Assembly: GCF_001905665.1 (NCBI RefSeq) | Contig: NZ_LIVX01000002.1 | Span: 321,420 to 385,419 of the forward strand | Length of the DNA stretch: 64,000 nucleotides | From: Streptomyces sp. CB02261 | Lineage (GTDB): Bacteria > Actinomycetota > Actinomycetes > Streptomycetales > Streptomycetaceae | Direction: 5' to 3' | Part shown: piece after piece, positions 2,543 to 11,835 of the stretch | How positions within the stretch are numbered: the first letter of the stretch is position 1 | How the letters are laid out: each line of letters opens with the position of its first letter | Position numbers and translations under genes: made by a program | Notes under the pieces: model-generated | What the model saw: only the letters and a program-made list of their open reading frames with translations | The model's database searches: none | Told to the model about the DNA's origin: nothing

Positions 2543-2865
2543 GCCCGCTCGTCCTCGTCGTGACCGGCGGCGGCCGCTCCCGCGAGCGCGTCCTCCAGCT
2601 CGGCGATCCGGGCGTCCCGCTCGGCCAGTTCGGCGCCGAGGCGGACGAGGACGTCGTCGACGTCCGCCATCCGGTAGCCGCGGACCGCGACGGGGAGGCG
2701 GACCGCCTCGACGTCGGCGCGGTCGACCGGGCGGGAGGCCGGGAGGGGGTCGACGAGCTGCTCGGGCGCCACCTCGGGCAGCACCTCGCTGTCGCCGCCG
2801 CCGACCACGGCGAGGGTCACCGCGGCCACGACCACGACCATCGTGATGAGCAGAAACCAGAACAC
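2539..2865 (-). CDS. Small membrane-anchored DivIVA-like protein
   Basis: 108 residues starting V/MFWFLL: one N-terminal membrane helix (about 2-24), a linker, and a short C-terminal part containing GYRMADVDDVLVRLG, which matches the DivIVA N-terminal signature (GYD...VD.FL), followed by a heptad-like coiled coil. GTG 2865 is chosen because GGAGAGG lies 7 nt upstream and places the membrane helix at the N-terminus; an upstream extension has no RBS. Coupled to tag by a 4-nt overlap and divergent from the folP-like gene. A polar-growth or envelope role is an inference from the DivIVA-type motif. Confidence 0.8.
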   Translation of the reverse strand: MFWFLLITMVVVVAAVTLAVVGGGDSEVLPEVAPEQLVDPLPASRPVDRADVEAVRLPVAVRGYRMADVDDVLVRLGAELAERDARIAELEDALAGAAAAGHDEDERA

Positions 2866-2928
2866 CTGCGTGCCTCTCCCCGGAGTGGAAACCGTCCCGT
2901 GCCGATCGTGCCATGCGCCACCGACAGC

Positions 2929-2934
2929 TAGGGT
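2929..2934 (+). promoter_or_regulatory. Putative -10 element for the folP-like gene
   Basis: TAGGGT lies 34 nt upstream of ATG 2969 and before a GGGAGGA ribosome-binding site (2954-2960). No clear -35 seen. Confidence 0.45.
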
Positions 2935-2968
2935 CGCAGGCGAACGGACACGAGGGAGGACAAAAGGG

Positions 2969-3829
2969 ATGCTGCGCTTGGGACGGCGTGAATTCGGGCC
3001 GCACGAGCCGGTGATCATGGCGATCGTGAACCGGACCCCGGACTCCTTCTACGACCAGGGCGCGACCTTCCGGGACGAGCCGGCGCTCGCCCGGGTCGAG
3101 CAGGCCGTGGCCGAGGGGGCGGCGATCATCGACATCGGCGGGGTGAAGGCGGGCCCCGGCGAGGAGGTGACGGCCGAGGAGGAGGCGCGGCGCACGGTCG
3201 GTTTCGTCGCGGAGGTCCGCAGGCGCCATCCCGACGTGGTCATCAGCGTGGACACCTGGCGGGCGGACGTCGGCGCGGCGGTCTGCGAGGCCGGGGCGGA
3301 CGTCCTGAACGACGCCTGGGGCGGGGTCGACCCCGGGCTCGCGGTGGTGGCGGCCAAGTACGGTGCGGGGCTCGTGTGCACGCACGCGGGGGGCGCCGAG
3401 CCGCGGACCCGGCCGCACCGGGTCGCGTACGAGGACGTGATGGCCGACATCCTGCGGGTGACGGTGGGCCTCGCGGAGCGGGCGGCGGCGCTCGGAGTGC
3501 GGCGGGACGCGATCATGATCGACCCGGGGCACGACTTCGGGAAGAACACCCGGCACAGCCTGGAGGCGACCCGGCGGCTCGGGGAGATGGCGGAGACGGG
3601 GTGGCCGGTGCTGGTGTCCCTGTCGAACAAGGACTTCGTCGGGGAGACCCTGGACCGGCCGGTGAAGGAGCGGGTCCTGGGGACCCTGGCGACGACCGCC
3701 GTCTCCGCGTGGCTGGGCGCCCGGGTGTACCGGGTGCACGAGGTGGCCGAGACGAAGCAGGTCCTGGACATGGTGGCGTCCATCGCCGGGCACCGGCCGC
3801 CGGCGGTGGCCCGGCGCGGGCTGGCGTAG
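2969..3829 (+). CDS. Dihydropteroate synthase homologue, FolP2 type
   Basis: 286 residues, TIM-barrel DHPS family. Loop 1 (IMAIVNRTPDSFYDQG) keeps the N-TPDSF core, ISVDTWRADV, DPGHDFGKN and the C-terminal RVHEV motifs are present, and a lysine is kept in SLSNKDFVG. Loop 2, normally GGESTRPG, reads GGVKAGPGEE, so the STR segment that helps bind the pterin and pABA is missing. This fits the FolP2 paralogues of actinobacteria, which in mycobacteria lack DHPS activity and sit in the same neighbourhood. Start ATG 2969 has GGGAGGA 8 nt upstream. The folate role is therefore doubtful. Confidence 0.85.
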   Translation: MLRLGRREFGPHEPVIMAIVNRTPDSFYDQGATFRDEPALARVEQAVAEGAAIIDIGGVKAGPGEEVTAEEEARRTVGFVAEVRRRHPDVVISVDTWRADVGAAVCEAGADVLNDAWGGVDPGLAVVAAKYGAGLVCTHAGGAEPRTRPHRVAYEDVMADILRVTVGLAERAAALGVRRDAIMIDPGHDFGKNTRHSLEATRRLGEMAETGWPVLVSLSNKDFVGETLDRPVKERVLGTLATTAVSAWLGARVYRVHEVAETKQVLDMVASIAGHRPPAVARRGLA

Positions 3830-3839
3830 GGCGACGTGA

Positions 3840-3864
3840 GGGGGCGCCGCTGGACGGCGCCCCC
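3840..3864. terminator. Bidirectional hairpin terminator
   Basis: 10-bp GC stem with loop CTGGA between the convergent folP-like and LOG-family genes. Confidence 0.65.
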
Positions 3865-3870
3865 GGGGAC

Positions 3871-4620
3871 CTACTTGCCGGTCTCCTTCGTCACCAGCGT
3901 GACCGCCTCCTCCACGTCGTCCGTGACGTGGAAGAGCAGCAGGTCGCGCTCCGAGGCCTTGCCGCCCGCGACGACCGAGTCACGGAGCCAGTCGACGAGG
4001 CCCTTCCAGTACTCCGTGCCGAAGAGGACGATCGGGAAGCGGGTGACCTTGCGGGTCTGGACCAGGGTCAGCGCCTCGAAGAGCTCGTCGAGGGTGCCCA
4101 GGCCACCGGGCAGGACGACGAACCCCTGCGCGTACTTCACGAACATCGTCTTGCGGACGAAGAAGTAGCGGAAGTTCACGCCGATGTCGACGTGCGGGTT
4201 GAGCCCCTGCTCGAAGGGCAGCTCGATGCCGAGGCCGACCGAGACGCCCTTGGCCTCCCTGGCCCCCTTGTTGGCCGCCTCCATGGCGCCGGGGCCGCCG
4301 CCGGTGATGACCGCGAAACCGGCCTCGACGAGCGCCCTGCCGATCCGTACGCCCGCCTCGTACTCGGGCGAGTCCGGCTTCGTGCGGGCCGAGCCGAAGA
4401 CGCTGATGGCGCTCGGCAGTTCGGCGAGCGCGCCGAAGCCCTCGACGAACTCGGACTGGATGCGCATGACCCGCCAGGGGTCGGTGTGCACCCACTCCGA
4501 GTCGCCCTCGGTGTCGAGCAGCCGCTGGTCCGTGGTGCCCGGCTGGATCTGGTCCCGCCGCCTGAGCACCGGACCGAGTCGCTGTTCCTCGGGCTTCGCC
4601 ATTCCCTCGGGAATGCCCAT
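3871..4620 (-). CDS. LOG-family Rossmann protein (TIGR00730, cytokinin nucleotide phosphoribohydrolase-like)
   Basis: 249 residues. The LOG signature PGGLGTLDELFEALTLVQ is present, with GGGPGAMEAANKGAREAKG before it. Proteins of this family, once called lysine decarboxylases, cleave 5'-monophosphate nucleosides such as cytokinin riboside phosphates; mycobacterial Rv1205 is a characterised homologue and lies in an equivalent neighbourhood. About 60 extra N-terminal residues precede the core, and the first 25 are polar. ATG 4620 is preceded by GGAGGGAG. The gene lies downstream of dapE on the same strand with a 104-bp gap, probably with its own promoter. Confidence 0.87.
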   Translation of the reverse strand: MGIPEGMAKPEEQRLGPVLRRRDQIQPGTTDQRLLDTEGDSEWVHTDPWRVMRIQSEFVEGFGALAELPSAISVFGSARTKPDSPEYEAGVRIGRALVEAGFAVITGGGPGAMEAANKGAREAKGVSVGLGIELPFEQGLNPHVDIGVNFRYFFVRKTMFVKYAQGFVVLPGGLGTLDELFEALTLVQTRKVTRFPIVLFGTEYWKGLVDWLRDSVVAGGKASERDLLLFHVTDDVEEAVTLVTKETGK

Positions 4621-7712: not shown

Positions 7713-8807
7713 TCAGCCGAGCCGCTTGACCGCCGCCTCGACGCGCTCGTCGGTGGCCGTGAACGCCACCCGCACGAACCGCTCCCCCGCCTCGCCGTAG
7801 AAGTCTCCGGGCGCCACCAGGACGCCCTTCTCCGCCAGATAGGCCACGGTCTCCCAGCACGGCTCGTCACGGGTCGCCCACAGGTACAGGCTCGCCTCGC
7901 TGTGCTCGATCCGGAAGCCGTGCGCCTCCAGGGCCGCCCGCAGCGCCGCCCGCCGGGCCGCGTACCGCTCCCGCTGCTCGGCCACGTGCGCGTCGTCGCC
8001 GAGCGCCGCCACCGTCGCCGCCTGGACCGGCGCCGCCGTCATCATGCCGCCGTGCTTGCGGATCTGGAGCAGCTCACCGAGCACCGCCGCGTCACCGGCG
8101 ACGAAGGCGGCCCGGTAGCCGGCCAGGTTGGAGCGCTTCGACAGCGAGTGGACGGCGACGATCCCCTCGTACGAACCGCCGCAGACGTCCGGGTGCAGCA
8201 CGGAGACGGGGTCGGCCTCCCAGCCCAGTTCCAGGTAGCACTCGTCGGAGAAGACGAGGACGCCGTGCTCGCGCGCCCAGGCCACGATCCGGGTCAGCTC
8301 GTCCTTGCCGAGGACCTTGCCGGTCGGGTTCGACGGGGAGTTGAGCCACAGCAGCTTCAGACCGGTCGGGTCGAGGCTCGTCGGGTCGTCGTAGACGACG
8401 GGGGTCGCGCCGCAGAGCCGCGCCCCGACCTCGTACGTCGGGTACGCGAGCCGCGGGTAGGCCACCACGTCACCCGCGCCGAGCCCCAGCTGCGTCGGCA
8501 GCCAGGCCACCAGCTCCTTGGAACCCACCACCGGCAGCACGTTCTCGTGCGCGAAGCCCACCGCGCCCAGACGCCGCTCGCACCAGCCGGTGAGCGCGTC
8601 CCGCAGCTCCTTCGTCCCCCACACCGTGGGATAGCCCGGCGAGTCCGCCGCCGCCACCAGGGCCTCCTGGATCAGCGCGGGAACCGGGTCGACGGGCGTG
8701 CCGACCGAGAGGTCCACGATTCCGTCCGGGTGCGCCAGGGCCGTCTTCTTGTACGGCTCCAGCTTGTCCCAGGGGAAGACGGGCAGGCGCGAAGAGACTG
8801 CGCTCAC
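7713..8807 (-). CDS. dapC: Succinyldiaminopimelate transaminase
   Basis: 364-residue fold type I PLP aminotransferase. It should convert N-succinyl-2-amino-6-ketopimelate to N-succinyl-LL-diaminopimelate, the substrate of DapE. Landmarks: N160 in SPSNPTG, D188 in VFSDECY, the Schiff-base lysine K224 in SLSKRSNLAGYR and the phosphate-binding arginine after it. The actinobacterial DapC form with the N-terminal LPVFPWDKLEPYK matches. GTG 8807 is the start. It follows the ferredoxin gene on the same strand with a hairpin-bearing 99-bp gap, an association conserved in actinobacteria. Confidence 0.92.
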   Translation of the reverse strand: MSAVSSRLPVFPWDKLEPYKKTALAHPDGIVDLSVGTPVDPVPALIQEALVAAADSPGYPTVWGTKELRDALTGWCERRLGAVGFAHENVLPVVGSKELVAWLPTQLGLGAGDVVAYPRLAYPTYEVGARLCGATPVVYDDPTSLDPTGLKLLWLNSPSNPTGKVLGKDELTRIVAWAREHGVLVFSDECYLELGWEADPVSVLHPDVCGGSYEGIVAVHSLSKRSNLAGYRAAFVAGDAAVLGELLQIRKHGGMMTAAPVQAATVAALGDDAHVAEQRERYAARRAALRAALEAHGFRIEHSEASLYLWATRDEPCWETVAYLAEKGVLVAPGDFYGEAGERFVRVAFTATDERVEAAVKRLG

Positions 8808-9339: not shown

Positions 9340-10383
9340 GTGGAATTCATCGGCGGAGGACGGCTTGAGGTCCGCATCACCAGCGCTGACGTGGGAAAAC
9401 GTGTCTCCGTTCGGTACGTGACGGACGGGGAGGCACCGGGTGCGAGATTCACCGACACGGTCGGAGTTCTCACATCATGGGATGACGCTGTGCTGCTGAT
9501 CACACGAAAGAGCGGCGAGAGCGTCCGGATCGCGGAATCCGCCCTGGTCGCCGGCAAGACCGTCCCGGCCGCTCCCGCCCGCCGTCGCGGCCCCTCGGCC
9601 ACCTTCCCCGAGCTGGCCCGGGCCACCGCGCGCGCGTGGCAGCCGGTCGAGAGCGAGGCCCTCGGCGAGTGGACCCTGCGCGCCGCGTTCCACGAGACGC
9701 CGTCCGAAGGCGCGCGGGCCGGGCGTCGGGTGGGCTTCACCCGGCGCGCCAACTCCGCCCTCCCGCTCGGCGATCCGGGCGTGCCGGTCGCCGACGCCCT
9801 GGCCCACGTGCGCGCGTGGTACGCGGCGCGGGGGCTCCCCGCGTACGTGCAGACCGCCACCGGCGCCGAAGGCACCCAGGAGCTGCTCTGCGCCGAACTC
9901 GACCGGCACGGCTGGCGGCGCGAGGTCTCCGCCGAGGTCCGGATCGCGGCGCTCGCCCCCCTCGGCGACCTGGACGCCGACGTCTCCGCCGTACGCCTCT
10001 CCCGCACCGCCGACGAGGCGTGGCTGCGCCGCTACCAGCGCGTCGGCGCGCCGGGCCCGGACGTCCGGCAGGTCCTCGCCTCGGGACCGAGTGTGTGGTT
10101 CGCGACCGTCGCGGGCACGGAAGAGGTACCCGCGGCGATCGGACGGTGCGTCGTCGACGGACGCTGGGCCGGCTTCATGGCCGTCGAGGTCGACCCGGCG
10201 CGACGGCGCCTCGGCCTGGCGACGTCCGTCATGACGGCGCTCGCCCGACAGGCCCTCGACGAGGGCGCGTCGGCCGCCTGGCTCCAGGTGGAGGCCGACA
10301 ACGACGGCGCGCGGGCGCTGTACGACGGCATGGGCTTCGCGCCCCACCACCACTACCACCACTACCGATGGGCGGAGGCGTGA
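9340..10383 (+). CDS. GNAT family N-acetyltransferase
   Basis: 347 residues. An N-terminal domain of about 80 residues (EFIGGGRLEVRITSADVGKR..) precedes a linker and a C-terminal acetyltransferase domain. The acetyl-CoA-binding motif A is seen as VDPARRRLGLATSVMTALA, and the motif B region AWLQVEADNDGARALYDGMGF matches the LQV..N..A..LY..GF pattern. The end is histidine and tyrosine rich (HHHYHHYRW). GTG 9340 is used because GGAG lies 5 nt before it. The TGA overlaps the next start (GTGA), so both genes are translationally coupled. The acceptor substrate is unknown. Confidence 0.87.
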   Translation: MEFIGGGRLEVRITSADVGKRVSVRYVTDGEAPGARFTDTVGVLTSWDDAVLLITRKSGESVRIAESALVAGKTVPAAPARRRGPSATFPELARATARAWQPVESEALGEWTLRAAFHETPSEGARAGRRVGFTRRANSALPLGDPGVPVADALAHVRAWYAARGLPAYVQTATGAEGTQELLCAELDRHGWRREVSAEVRIAALAPLGDLDADVSAVRLSRTADEAWLRRYQRVGAPGPDVRQVLASGPSVWFATVAGTEEVPAAIGRCVVDGRWAGFMAVEVDPARRRLGLATSVMTALARQALDEGASAAWLQVEADNDGARALYDGMGFAPHHHYHHYRWAEA

Positions 10384-11216
10384 CGGACGAGGAACCACCG
10401 GTCGACTGGCGGCGGGAGTTCGCGGAGGAGGCGAGGTCGGAACGGCCCGACCTCGCCCGCCTGTGCCTGCTCATCGGGGCCGTGGCCGACCCCGCCGTCA
10501 CCCGGCACGACCTCGACGAGGCCGAGATCGAACTCGACCGCCTCGCCGGACTCGTCCCGTACGCGACCCGGATCACCGGCGACTGGGCCGGCGAACTCGC
10601 CGCGCTCCTCGGCCACCGCGAGGGCTTCGAGGGCGTCCCCGCCGACTACCAGCGCCTGGAGTCCTCGCTCCTGCACGAGGTGCTCCGGCGCCGCCGGGGC
10701 CTGCCCATCCTGCTCTCCGTCGTCTGGATGGAGGTCGCGCGCCGCGCCGGCGCCCCCGTGTACGGCCTCGGGCTGCCCGGCCACTTCGTCGTCGGCTTCG
10801 GGGACCCCGCCGACCTGAACCTCGCCGACCCCTTCGCGGGCGGGCGGGCCATGACCGGCGCGGACGCCGAACTCCTGGTGACGAGCGCGACGGGCGAGGC
10901 CCTCGACCGCTCGATGCTCCGCCCCGCCGAGCCCGGCGCGATCGTGCTGCGCGTCCTCAACAACATCCGCGCCTGGGCGGCCCCCCGCCCCGAGCGCTCC
11001 GACGTCGCCCTGTGGGCCGTGGAGCTGTCCCTGCTGCTCCCGTCCCACCCGGCCAGGCTCCGCTACGAGCGCGCCGAGCTGCTGGTCCAGCGCGGTGAGT
11101 TCCTCACCGGAGCGGCCGAGATGGAGTCGTACGCGCGGGTGATGGAGGCGGTGGACCCGGAGTCGGCGACGACGATCCGCCGCCGCGCGCTCGCGGCCCG
11201 GGCGCGGCTGAACTGA
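10380..11216 (+). CDS. SirB1/transglutaminase-like protein
   Basis: 278 residues; GTG start overlaps the preceding stop by 4 nt. The central part (LLHEVLRRRRGLPILLSVVWMEVARRAGAPVYGLGLPGHFVVG) is the conserved core of the SirB1 family, a transglutaminase-like fold; the usual catalytic cysteine position is not evident, while the histidine of GLPGHFVVG is present. The C-terminal third (RPERSDVALWAVELSLLLPSHPARLRYERAELLVQRGEF) looks like TPR helices, which is also usual for SirB1 proteins. Molecular function is unknown. Likely expressed with the GNAT gene. Confidence 0.82.
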   Translation: MTDEEPPVDWRREFAEEARSERPDLARLCLLIGAVADPAVTRHDLDEAEIELDRLAGLVPYATRITGDWAGELAALLGHREGFEGVPADYQRLESSLLHEVLRRRRGLPILLSVVWMEVARRAGAPVYGLGLPGHFVVGFGDPADLNLADPFAGGRAMTGADAELLVTSATGEALDRSMLRPAEPGAIVLRVLNNIRAWAAPRPERSDVALWAVELSLLLPSHPARLRYERAELLVQRGEFLTGAAEMESYARVMEAVDPESATTIRRRALAARARLN

Positions 11217-11248
11217 CGGCGCCCGAGCGCCTCGGAACGAGGGAGGGG

Positions 11249-11321
11249 GCGGGGCGACCGGATTCGAACCGGCGTCCTCCGAGATGCCATCGCGGCGCAT
11301 TACCTCTGTGCTACGACCCCG
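11249..11321 (-). tRNA. Atypical tRNA, anticodon GGC (alanine codon GCC), bulged acceptor stem
   Basis: Minus-strand sequence from 11321 to 11249 folds as a cloverleaf. Conserved positions are intact: U8, A14, G15 with C48, G18G19, A21, G26, U33, A37, the TTCGAAT T-loop, G53 and C61. Anticodon loop is ATGGCAT, anticodon GGC. Oddities: the acceptor 5' strand is CGGGG-T-CG against CGCCCCG, so one T is bulged; position 3:70 is G:C instead of the alanine identity pair G:U; the discriminator is C; the anticodon stem has a C:U mismatch; the D-stem has 3 bp; CCA is not encoded. G residues upstream could extend the stem to G-1:C73. It may be a divergent functional tRNA or a decaying one. Confidence 0.65.
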
Positions 11322-11333
11322 CCCTTGCGGGGG

Positions 11334-11339
11334 ACTCTA
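11334..11339 (-). promoter_or_regulatory. Putative -10 element for the tRNA
   Basis: TAGAGT on the minus strand, 12 nt before the first base of the cloverleaf. No good -35 is seen. Confidence 0.4.
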
Positions 11340-11472
11340 CGTGACCGTCTCCGAGGGCGGCGACCCCTTTTCCGCCCTCCCCGGGCCCCGCAGACCGCCG
11401 TCGGCGGTGGAGTCGCCCTCCGCGCCCACGCGTCGCGCCACTTCCGGTACCGTCCGGCGGCAGAATGCGCTC

Positions 11473-11835
11473 ATGCCGCTGACCGCCGACATCCTCGTCG
11501 CCCTCGTCGCCCTGCTGCACCTCTACACGATGGTGATGGAGATGTTCCTGTGGCAGAAGCCGATCGGTCGTCGTTTCTCCGGCTTCGACGCCCGGCTGGC
11601 CCGAGACACCGCCGTCATGGCCGCCAACCAGGGCCTCTACAACGGCTTCCTCGCCGCCGGCCTGGTCTGGGGCCTCGTCGCCGACGACCCCACCGGCTTC
11701 CGCGTCCGCGTCTTCTTCCTGTCCTGCGTCGTCATCGCCGGGATCTACGGCGCCGCCACCGCCAACCGCCGCATCCTCTTCGCCCAGGCCCTGCCCGGCG
11801 CGCTCGCCCTCTCGGCCGTCCTCGTCTCGCACTGA
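11473..11835 (+). CDS. DUF1304 family membrane protein
   Basis: 120 residues with four membrane helices: LTADILVALVALLHLYTMVMEMFLW, the NQGLYNGFLAAGLVWGL segment, VFFLSCVVIAGIYGAA and ALPGALALSAVLVS. The segments HLYTMVMEMFLW and ANQGLYNGFLAAGL are the hallmark of DUF1304. ATG 11473 gives the normal family length; the frame is open upstream through the tRNA and cannot be coding there. The family is widespread in bacteria, and its function is unknown. Confidence 0.9.
   Translation: MPLTADILVALVALLHLYTMVMEMFLWQKPIGRRFSGFDARLARDTAVMAANQGLYNGFLAAGLVWGLVADDPTGFRVRVFFLSCVVIAGIYGAATANRRILFAQALPGALALSAVLVSH

Follow-up and report, generated by a model that had tools for sequence, protein, structure and literature searches.

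A tRNA-shaped RNA of a widespread actinobacterial family with an exchangeable anticodon loop: a possible bait for anticodon-directed proteins

Known tRNA-like systems and the RNA of the window

Few parts of a tRNA are normally as constrained as its anticodon. In the Y RNA/Ro systems and in the RNA-repair systems with a tRNA-like RNA, which Burroughs and Aravind reportedly described in 2016, a tRNA mimic lies beside a multi-gene protein system. In Streptomyces, tRNA-ProX accompanied by ProRSx is known (PMC10365949, PMC11415595), and the accessible part of the latter text describes tRNA-ProX as having A33, A34, an A15-A48 pair and G21 and as lying beside ProRSx. According to the accessible sections of PMC7609411, the allo-tRNAs (8/4 and 9/3 types), reported from Clostridia, Proteobacteria and Acidobacteria, combine a 12-bp acceptor branch with a longer variable arm, and their anticodons range over 35 codons. 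In E. coli, some of these tRNAs are useless in translation, and Ser or Ala is inserted by allo-tRNAs bearing many anticodons. Phage tRNAs were proposed, in the available portion of PMC10264068, to be translating spares that are insensitive to anticodon nucleases. No description of a tRNA-like RNA family of the kind reported here was recognised in the literature searched.

The window, by which we mean the whole stretch of 64,000 nucleotides from Streptomyces sp. CB02261, encodes a tRNA-like RNA with the anticodon GGC on its minus strand (11249..11321, positions 1-73). The RNA was recognised from its sequence, by ARAGORN, by Rfam and by the covariance model R1, with which it scored 79.8 bits as one of the 36 sequences used to build that model. 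ARAGORN called it tRNA-Ala(GGC) at 11246-11322 (minus), the sole tRNA call within the window, and the Rfam tRNA model gave 41.1 bits vs. a cut-off of 29, which was the lowest score among the 68 Rfam tRNA matches genome-wide. Both results agreed with the cloverleaf proposed in a sequence-only reading of this DNA, and the tertiary positions listed there (U8, A14, G15/C48, G18G19, A21, U33, A37 and the T-loop) were all present. Also confirmed were the anticodon loop AUGGCAU (11284..11290, minus) with the anticodon at 11286..11288 (minus), the pairs C1:G72 and G3:C70, the base C73, and a G-1:C73 pair of the tRNA-His kind, which is possible at the DNA level. The thermodynamic fold of the RNA was indistinct from that of shuffled sequences (z -0.37; 66 of 200 shuffles folded equally well or better).

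The recognition of tRNA-Ala depends on G3:U70 and A73. The RNA of the window shares the GGC anticodon with tRNA-Ala but carries G3:C70 and C73, and its orthologues do not keep the anticodon, as five different ones were found at this one locus in eight genomes. At least two ordinary tRNA-Ala(GGC) genes (L014 and L015), together with Ala(TGC) and Ala(CGC), were counted in the same genome, where anticodons were typed for part of the 68 tRNA matches. This indicated that the RNA is dispensable for reading GCC. The earlier view that it is not an ordinary tRNA-Ala was borne out by the five anticodons and by C73, which was present in 31 of 31 records of its subtype (subtype I, defined below), and the accompanying suggestion of an RNA with another role was judged plausible.

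An extra U at position 11316 (minus) can be read in two ways: either this U is itself the bulge, between G5 and C6, or it faces G67 and C6 is bulged. Further defects in the sequence were a C13.A22 mismatch in the D-stem and, in the anticodon stem, C30.U40, and the variable region was AGGAC (5 nt). A young pseudogene, or a sequencing error behind the extra T, had been considered for this RNA. Both were ruled out, because the extra base (U in 29 records, G in one and C in one) and C73 were shared by all 31 subtype I records and the family covaries. The 31 records of the subtype and the covariation of the family confirmed that the RNA is real beyond chance.

The acceptor helix of the RNA extends past position 1 through G-1:C73, G-2:C74 and G-3:C75 and thereby spans the usual CCA site. 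Its 5' arm, GGGCGGGG (positions -3 to 5; 11317..11324, minus), was invariant in subtype I, and its 3' arm, CCCCGCCC (positions 68-75; 11247..11254, minus), had no encoded CCA; both arms were assigned from the sequence, the stem lengths and the counts per pair. When one bulge was allowed, the closing helix reached at least 9 bp in 67 of 93 distinct family members vs. one of 32 distinct canonical tRNAs of the window genome, of which 21 had 7 bp, 10 had 8 bp and one had 11 bp. By group, helices of at least 9 bp were found in 15/16 members of subtype I, 13/15 of subtype II, 20/24 of subtype III and 19/38 of the others; of these 38, which belong to none of subtypes I-III, 12 had a closing helix of 7 bp or less. 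Among 25 subtype III sequences, the pairs -1:73, -2:74, -3:75 and -4:76 were formed in 24, 25, 24 and 23, respectively, and three of these four pairs had changed in both partners, which indicated that the extension there behaves like a genuine helix. The extension of subtype I was present and invariant, so that covariation is not demonstrable in that group.

A -10-like hexamer, TAGAGT (11334..11339, minus), starts 25 nt upstream of position 7 and belongs to a conserved band of TANNNT motifs. In 30 of the 31 subtype I records a TANNNT started 22-25 nt before position 7, and among 95 upstream stretches of the family 68 of the 74 TANNNT matches fell in this 22-25 nt band. A scan with an E. coli-type consensus found no promoter at the window RNA.

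The RNA family and its anticodons

BLASTN with the window RNA gave a match in 35 of 100 genomes including its own, some of these matches being short T-arm pieces. The better matches had common D- and T-arms and many different anticodons. In an alignment of 36 members, 94.8% of 712 cells were paired, compared with at most 53.3% in slid controls, and changes on both sides were seen at 14 of 20 pairs, a result that none of 500 shuffles equalled. The T-stem of these members had 5 bp, with 100% of its cells paired. Covariance model R1, built from the 36 aligned members, scored family members at ~67-96 bits and the canonical tRNAs of the window genome at 61 bits or less, except tRNA-Val(TAC), whose 66.6 bits are left out by a threshold of E ≤ 1e-14. 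At this threshold, 117 of 295 genomes in the window's genus had a member, and the window genome itself contained one. Members were present in 19 of 296 genomes of a class-wide sample (14 in the genus and five in the actinobacterial family f19), which was a sample and not a full survey and listed no genome of f3, though f3 has members.

Based on 80 fetched contexts and smaller loci, the members were grouped into subtypes I (the window type), II, III and IV, SDR-linked members, and tandem arrays at one locus in f3. Subtype III was defined by its Trp-type CCA loop. Counts from an automatic anticodon table, which misread odd arms and sorted subtype III by that same loop, were left out of the evidence. 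The subtype I set consisted of 33 regex matches minus L072, which was spurious, and L076, which has another arm and an ambiguous anticodon (Ala or Cys according to ARAGORN). The resulting 31 records came from 30 genomes and one plasmid and comprised 22 distinct sequences, their loci having been fetched by score and length and not as a census. The tandem arrays, each of 2-4 family RNAs, were found in six f3 genomes (L061-L065 and L067); their anticodons differed between species slot by slot, and the array of L067 included TCA, which would read UGA.

At the window locus, the anticodon is the most variable part of a nearly frozen molecule. The RNA was present at this locus in eight genomes including its own, with GGC in the window genome (G000) and G015, GAC in G004 and G309, AGC in G288 and G330, GTC in G182 and GCC in G190; all four bases occurred at position 35. 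Genome G190 was more distant, with 74-76% identity over a single matching flank, and the flanks of the seven close genomes were 80-96% identical. Among these seven, five of 81 RNA columns varied: the extra base (in one genome) and positions 22, 33, 34, and 35. The RNAs of the closest pair, G288 and G309, whose flanks were 92.7 and 95.5% identical, differed solely at positions 22, 33, 34, and 35. For three or more of five variable columns to lie within 33-36, a P of 4.6e-4 was obtained, a post hoc value that ignores shared descent.

The 31 subtype I anticodons were AGC (11), ATC (8), GGC (4), GAC (3), GTC (3) and GCC (2). Around them, A32, C36 and U38 were present in 31/31 records, like C73, and A37 was present in 30/31. 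A second shared locus, found in seven genomes, was mostly constant (AGC in five, GCU in L074, ambiguous in L076), and a subtype III locus common to four genomes kept CCA in all four.

Genomic context and linked proteins

The window RNA stands alone, flanked by two open frames of the opposite strand. One of them, taken as the longest frame (9636..11216, plus), is convergent with the RNA, and its DNA is conserved in relatives; the other (11473..11835, plus) is divergent from it, with a start chosen by eye within the ORF 11284-11835.

Among the 80 contexts, the RNA was directly 5' of an SDR-LRR-ankyrin-AAA cluster in 14, although the members were not all present each time. The members were an LRR protein, an ankyrin protein, AAA_5 ATPases accompanied by a DUF2201 protein, and an SDR protein, in which inspection by eye showed a CxxC...CxxC stretch. 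In a fifteenth context (L122) the SDR gene was on the opposite side of the RNA, and none of the cluster genes was found in the remaining 65. The same partners occurred at five of seven loci in family f19, two of them in the order RNA-SDR-LRR-ankyrin-AAA. Linkage of the RNA to the cluster in more than one family suggests that it is old. Loci L236 and L239 carried an RNA-SDR-LRR-ankyrin-AAA ATPase cluster in an actinobacterial family other than that of the window.

Neither of two cluster proteins qualified as a fixed partner of the RNA. At E ≤ 1e-20, the LRR protein was found in two of 40 genomes (20 with subtype I and 20 with no family match), both of which carry further family members, and it was absent from the window genome; an obligatory partnership was therefore rejected. 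By sequence, its nearest solved structure was the ribonuclease inhibitor, as for many such LRR proteins. The SDR protein was found at E ≤ 1e-50 in 36 of the 40 genomes, mostly as a distant copy with ~45-53% identity, and was rejected as a partner because most of the SDR loci searched had no family RNA: in 20 of them, R1 found an intact RNA in L246 only, and decayed copies in L245. A distant SDR copy was present in most of the 40 genomes, including that of the window (L265; G000 C13:613017-614468), and no such RNA accompanied it at the loci that were searched. In L245 (G013), two decayed tandem copies (1277-1433; 26-27 bits with R1) lay directly upstream of the SDR gene, which suggests that the RNA can be lost while the SDR stays.

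Representatives of the cluster gave weak matches only in PADLOC. The model of the ankyrin partner had a pLDDT of 85.1 and a large N-terminal part that received no assignment; the 50 Foldseek matches listed appeared from their titles to be ankyrin-repeat or DARPin entries. In the accessible text of a paper on MoxR-vWA conflict systems, the word 'tRNA' appears once, in the references (PMC7159879).

Two other neighbourhoods were observed. In five genomes (L075, L115, L116, L121, and L151), a family RNA lay upstream of genes for a beta-lactamase-fold protein and a 267-aa protein that is presumably exonuclease III-like, and the Trp-type CCA anticodon was present in all four loops read from this set. 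At L137 (G288), a family member at 7953 (plus) lay ~31 nt upstream of a 571-aa gene, which we take to encode a methionyl-tRNA synthetase look-alike.

A link to tRNA-ProA and ProRSx had also been raised for the window RNA. It was excluded on two grounds, the sequence in the window and the lack of a second ProRS: the genome encodes one bacterial-type ProRS over the cut-off, sited on another contig than the RNA. A tRNA-ProA-like gene with a different sequence was found in G012 (L206, 2367-2441, minus), with the anticodon AGC, an encoded CCA, A73 and C1:G72. It lies directly downstream of a 550-aa ORF (2598-4250, minus), of which two separate pieces matched the ProRS model with scores below the cut-off. 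Together, the gene and the ORF resemble the known tRNA-ProX/ProRSx pair and served as a contrast from a relative.

Possible roles and comparison with known systems

A tentative explanation, which we hold to be possible and short of probable, is that this tRNA-shaped RNA of a widespread actinobacterial family is a non-decoding mimic, whose swappable anticodon loop would be a bait for anticodon-recognising or anticodon-cutting proteins. Its own -10 box would drive transcription, with a start predicted no more than a few bases from the long acceptor helix. The loop, presented on a frozen scaffold, would be the working part of the molecule, and the exchange at positions 33-35 may result from an arms race against anticodon-directed enzymes of various kinds, such as tRNase toxins and phage or host nucleases. 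In the analysed data, an anticodon nuclease tied to a family member was not found. Several further results weigh against a bait: the LRR protein is absent from the window genome, 65 of 80 contexts have no cluster gene, the second shared locus is mostly constant and the subtype III locus keeps its loop, the helix extension of subtype I is invariant, positions 22, 33 and 34 are linked, the folding energy is ordinary, and the PADLOC matches are weak. Elsewhere in the family, the RNA would work together with the SDR, LRR, ankyrin and AAA proteins encoded behind it, and the copy in the window may be an orphan acting alone. A wider proposal is more doubtful: that these RNAs form a new class of frozen-scaffold baits, whose anticodons were diversified at fixed loci by selection tracking anticodon-attacking enzymes, and which were ancestrally the RNA subunit of an actinobacterial SDR-LRR-ankyrin-AAA conflict system and have since become orphans.

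The main functional rival is a missense tRNA. RNase P and trimming would here yield a 7/5 tRNA, which one synthetase would charge through its acceptor features and which would insert that amino acid at the GNN codons its anticodon reads. The G-1:C73 pair would suit HisRS, and C1:G72 would suit ProRS; tRNA-Pro, however, carries A73, and the RNA has C73. The cloverleaf keeps the tertiary positions of a tRNA, and decoding would explain the invariant C36, since with it every subtype I anticodon reads GNN codons. Allo-tRNAs with many anticodons are a further point in its favour, as E. coli proteins receive Ser or Ala from them (PMC7609411). Against it stand the lack of a second ProRS over the cut-off and the CCA, which is not encoded and over whose site the stem runs on; positions 73-75 being helical, 3' maturation and charging would be hindered. 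In addition, C33 was present in 21 of the 31 subtype I records, and pair 30.40 was mismatched in all 31 despite base changes, and with such an anticodon stem and so frequent a C33 decoding is unlikely. We consider a missense tRNA an unlikely role for the family.

The RNA could also be a structural or mobile relic, whose tRNA body persists as a site of recombination or binding within a mobile unit of ~100 bp and the anticodon changes through gene conversion or drift. Subtype I RNAs with ATC were found in five genomes at loci with no common flanks, and also on a plasmid of Streptomyces coeruleorubidus, which indicated that the unit moves or is exchanged. The states A22-U33-G34 and G22-C33-A34 were linked in 26 of 31 subtype I records, so gene conversion could take the place of site-by-site selection, and some of the exchange could stem from conversion between copies. 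However, the -10-like box in 30/31 records and the covarying helices point to a transcribed RNA, and drift fails to explain a frozen C36 beside a free position 35. A relic of this kind is also improbable in our view.

An aminoacyl donor for non-ribosomal chemistry, in the synthesis of the cell wall, lipids or a natural product, would not need its anticodon and would account for its free change. An unusual tRNA-Gly of Staphylococcus aureus has a role in the cell wall. The accessible part of PMC8007984 presents it as an example of a non-canonical function. The donor role is nevertheless distinctly improbable, because positions 32, 36, and 38 are frozen while 33-35 vary, the AlaRS signal G3:U70 is absent, and among the 30 neighbour-gene clusters listed none was seen to recur across subtype I loci except those of shared loci. 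A role as a small regulatory RNA, base-pairing with target mRNAs through a loop that shifts as they shift, would agree with the predicted promoter and the exposed variable loop, but two or three variable bases are too few for specific pairing, and we regard this as the least credible of the roles.

A bait for anticodon-directed proteins would, in our analysis, fit the long helix, the mismatches, C33 and the change of anticodon best. As the anticodon at the window locus varies on a nearly frozen molecule, a swap of three bases makes the role of non-canonical tRNA families with mixed anticodons, such as the allo-tRNAs, directly testable. Family members annotated automatically as tRNA-Ala, -Val, -Asp or -Gly may carry a misleading label.

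The family pattern had no match in viral contigs. A phage or viral tRNA was rejected, because the three phage matches were annotated tRNA-Asp genes of Mycobacterium abscessus prophages, and the one examined sits in a large tRNA array. A prophage of this species (L175; MW584160.1) carried such an array together with a tmRNA, an RtcB-like ligase and a peptidyl-tRNA hydrolase. The likeness to phage tRNAs lies in changes of the anticodon loop, which the available portion of PMC10264068 proposes to follow anticodon nucleases; in contrast, the window RNA is chromosomal and has no encoded CCA, and it is the anticodon itself that changes.

With the Y RNA/Ro and RNA-repair systems, the family shares a tRNA-mimicking RNA next to a multi-gene protein system, but the partner genes identified here encode SDR, LRR, ankyrin and AAA proteins. 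It resembles tRNA-ProX, as far as the accessible texts describe it, in its occurrence in Streptomyces, in a body that does not match its anticodon, in alanine anticodons among others, and in C1:G72, as seen in the G012 gene. It differs from tRNA-ProX in that the window RNA, with U33, G34, A21 and G15-C48, has none of A33, A34, A15-A48 and G21 and no adjacent ProRSx. To the allo-tRNAs of PMC7609411, within the accessible sections, it is similar in the many anticodons on related scaffolds and the elongated acceptor helix, and some of those RNAs likewise have odd stems or a G-1 base. Unlike them, the family has a T-stem of 5 bp, a short variable region and actinobacterial hosts, and many anticodons are found on one scaffold that has neither the 8/4 or 9/3 branch nor the longer variable arm. 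Among the known kinds, the allo-tRNAs are nevertheless the nearest to this family in spirit.
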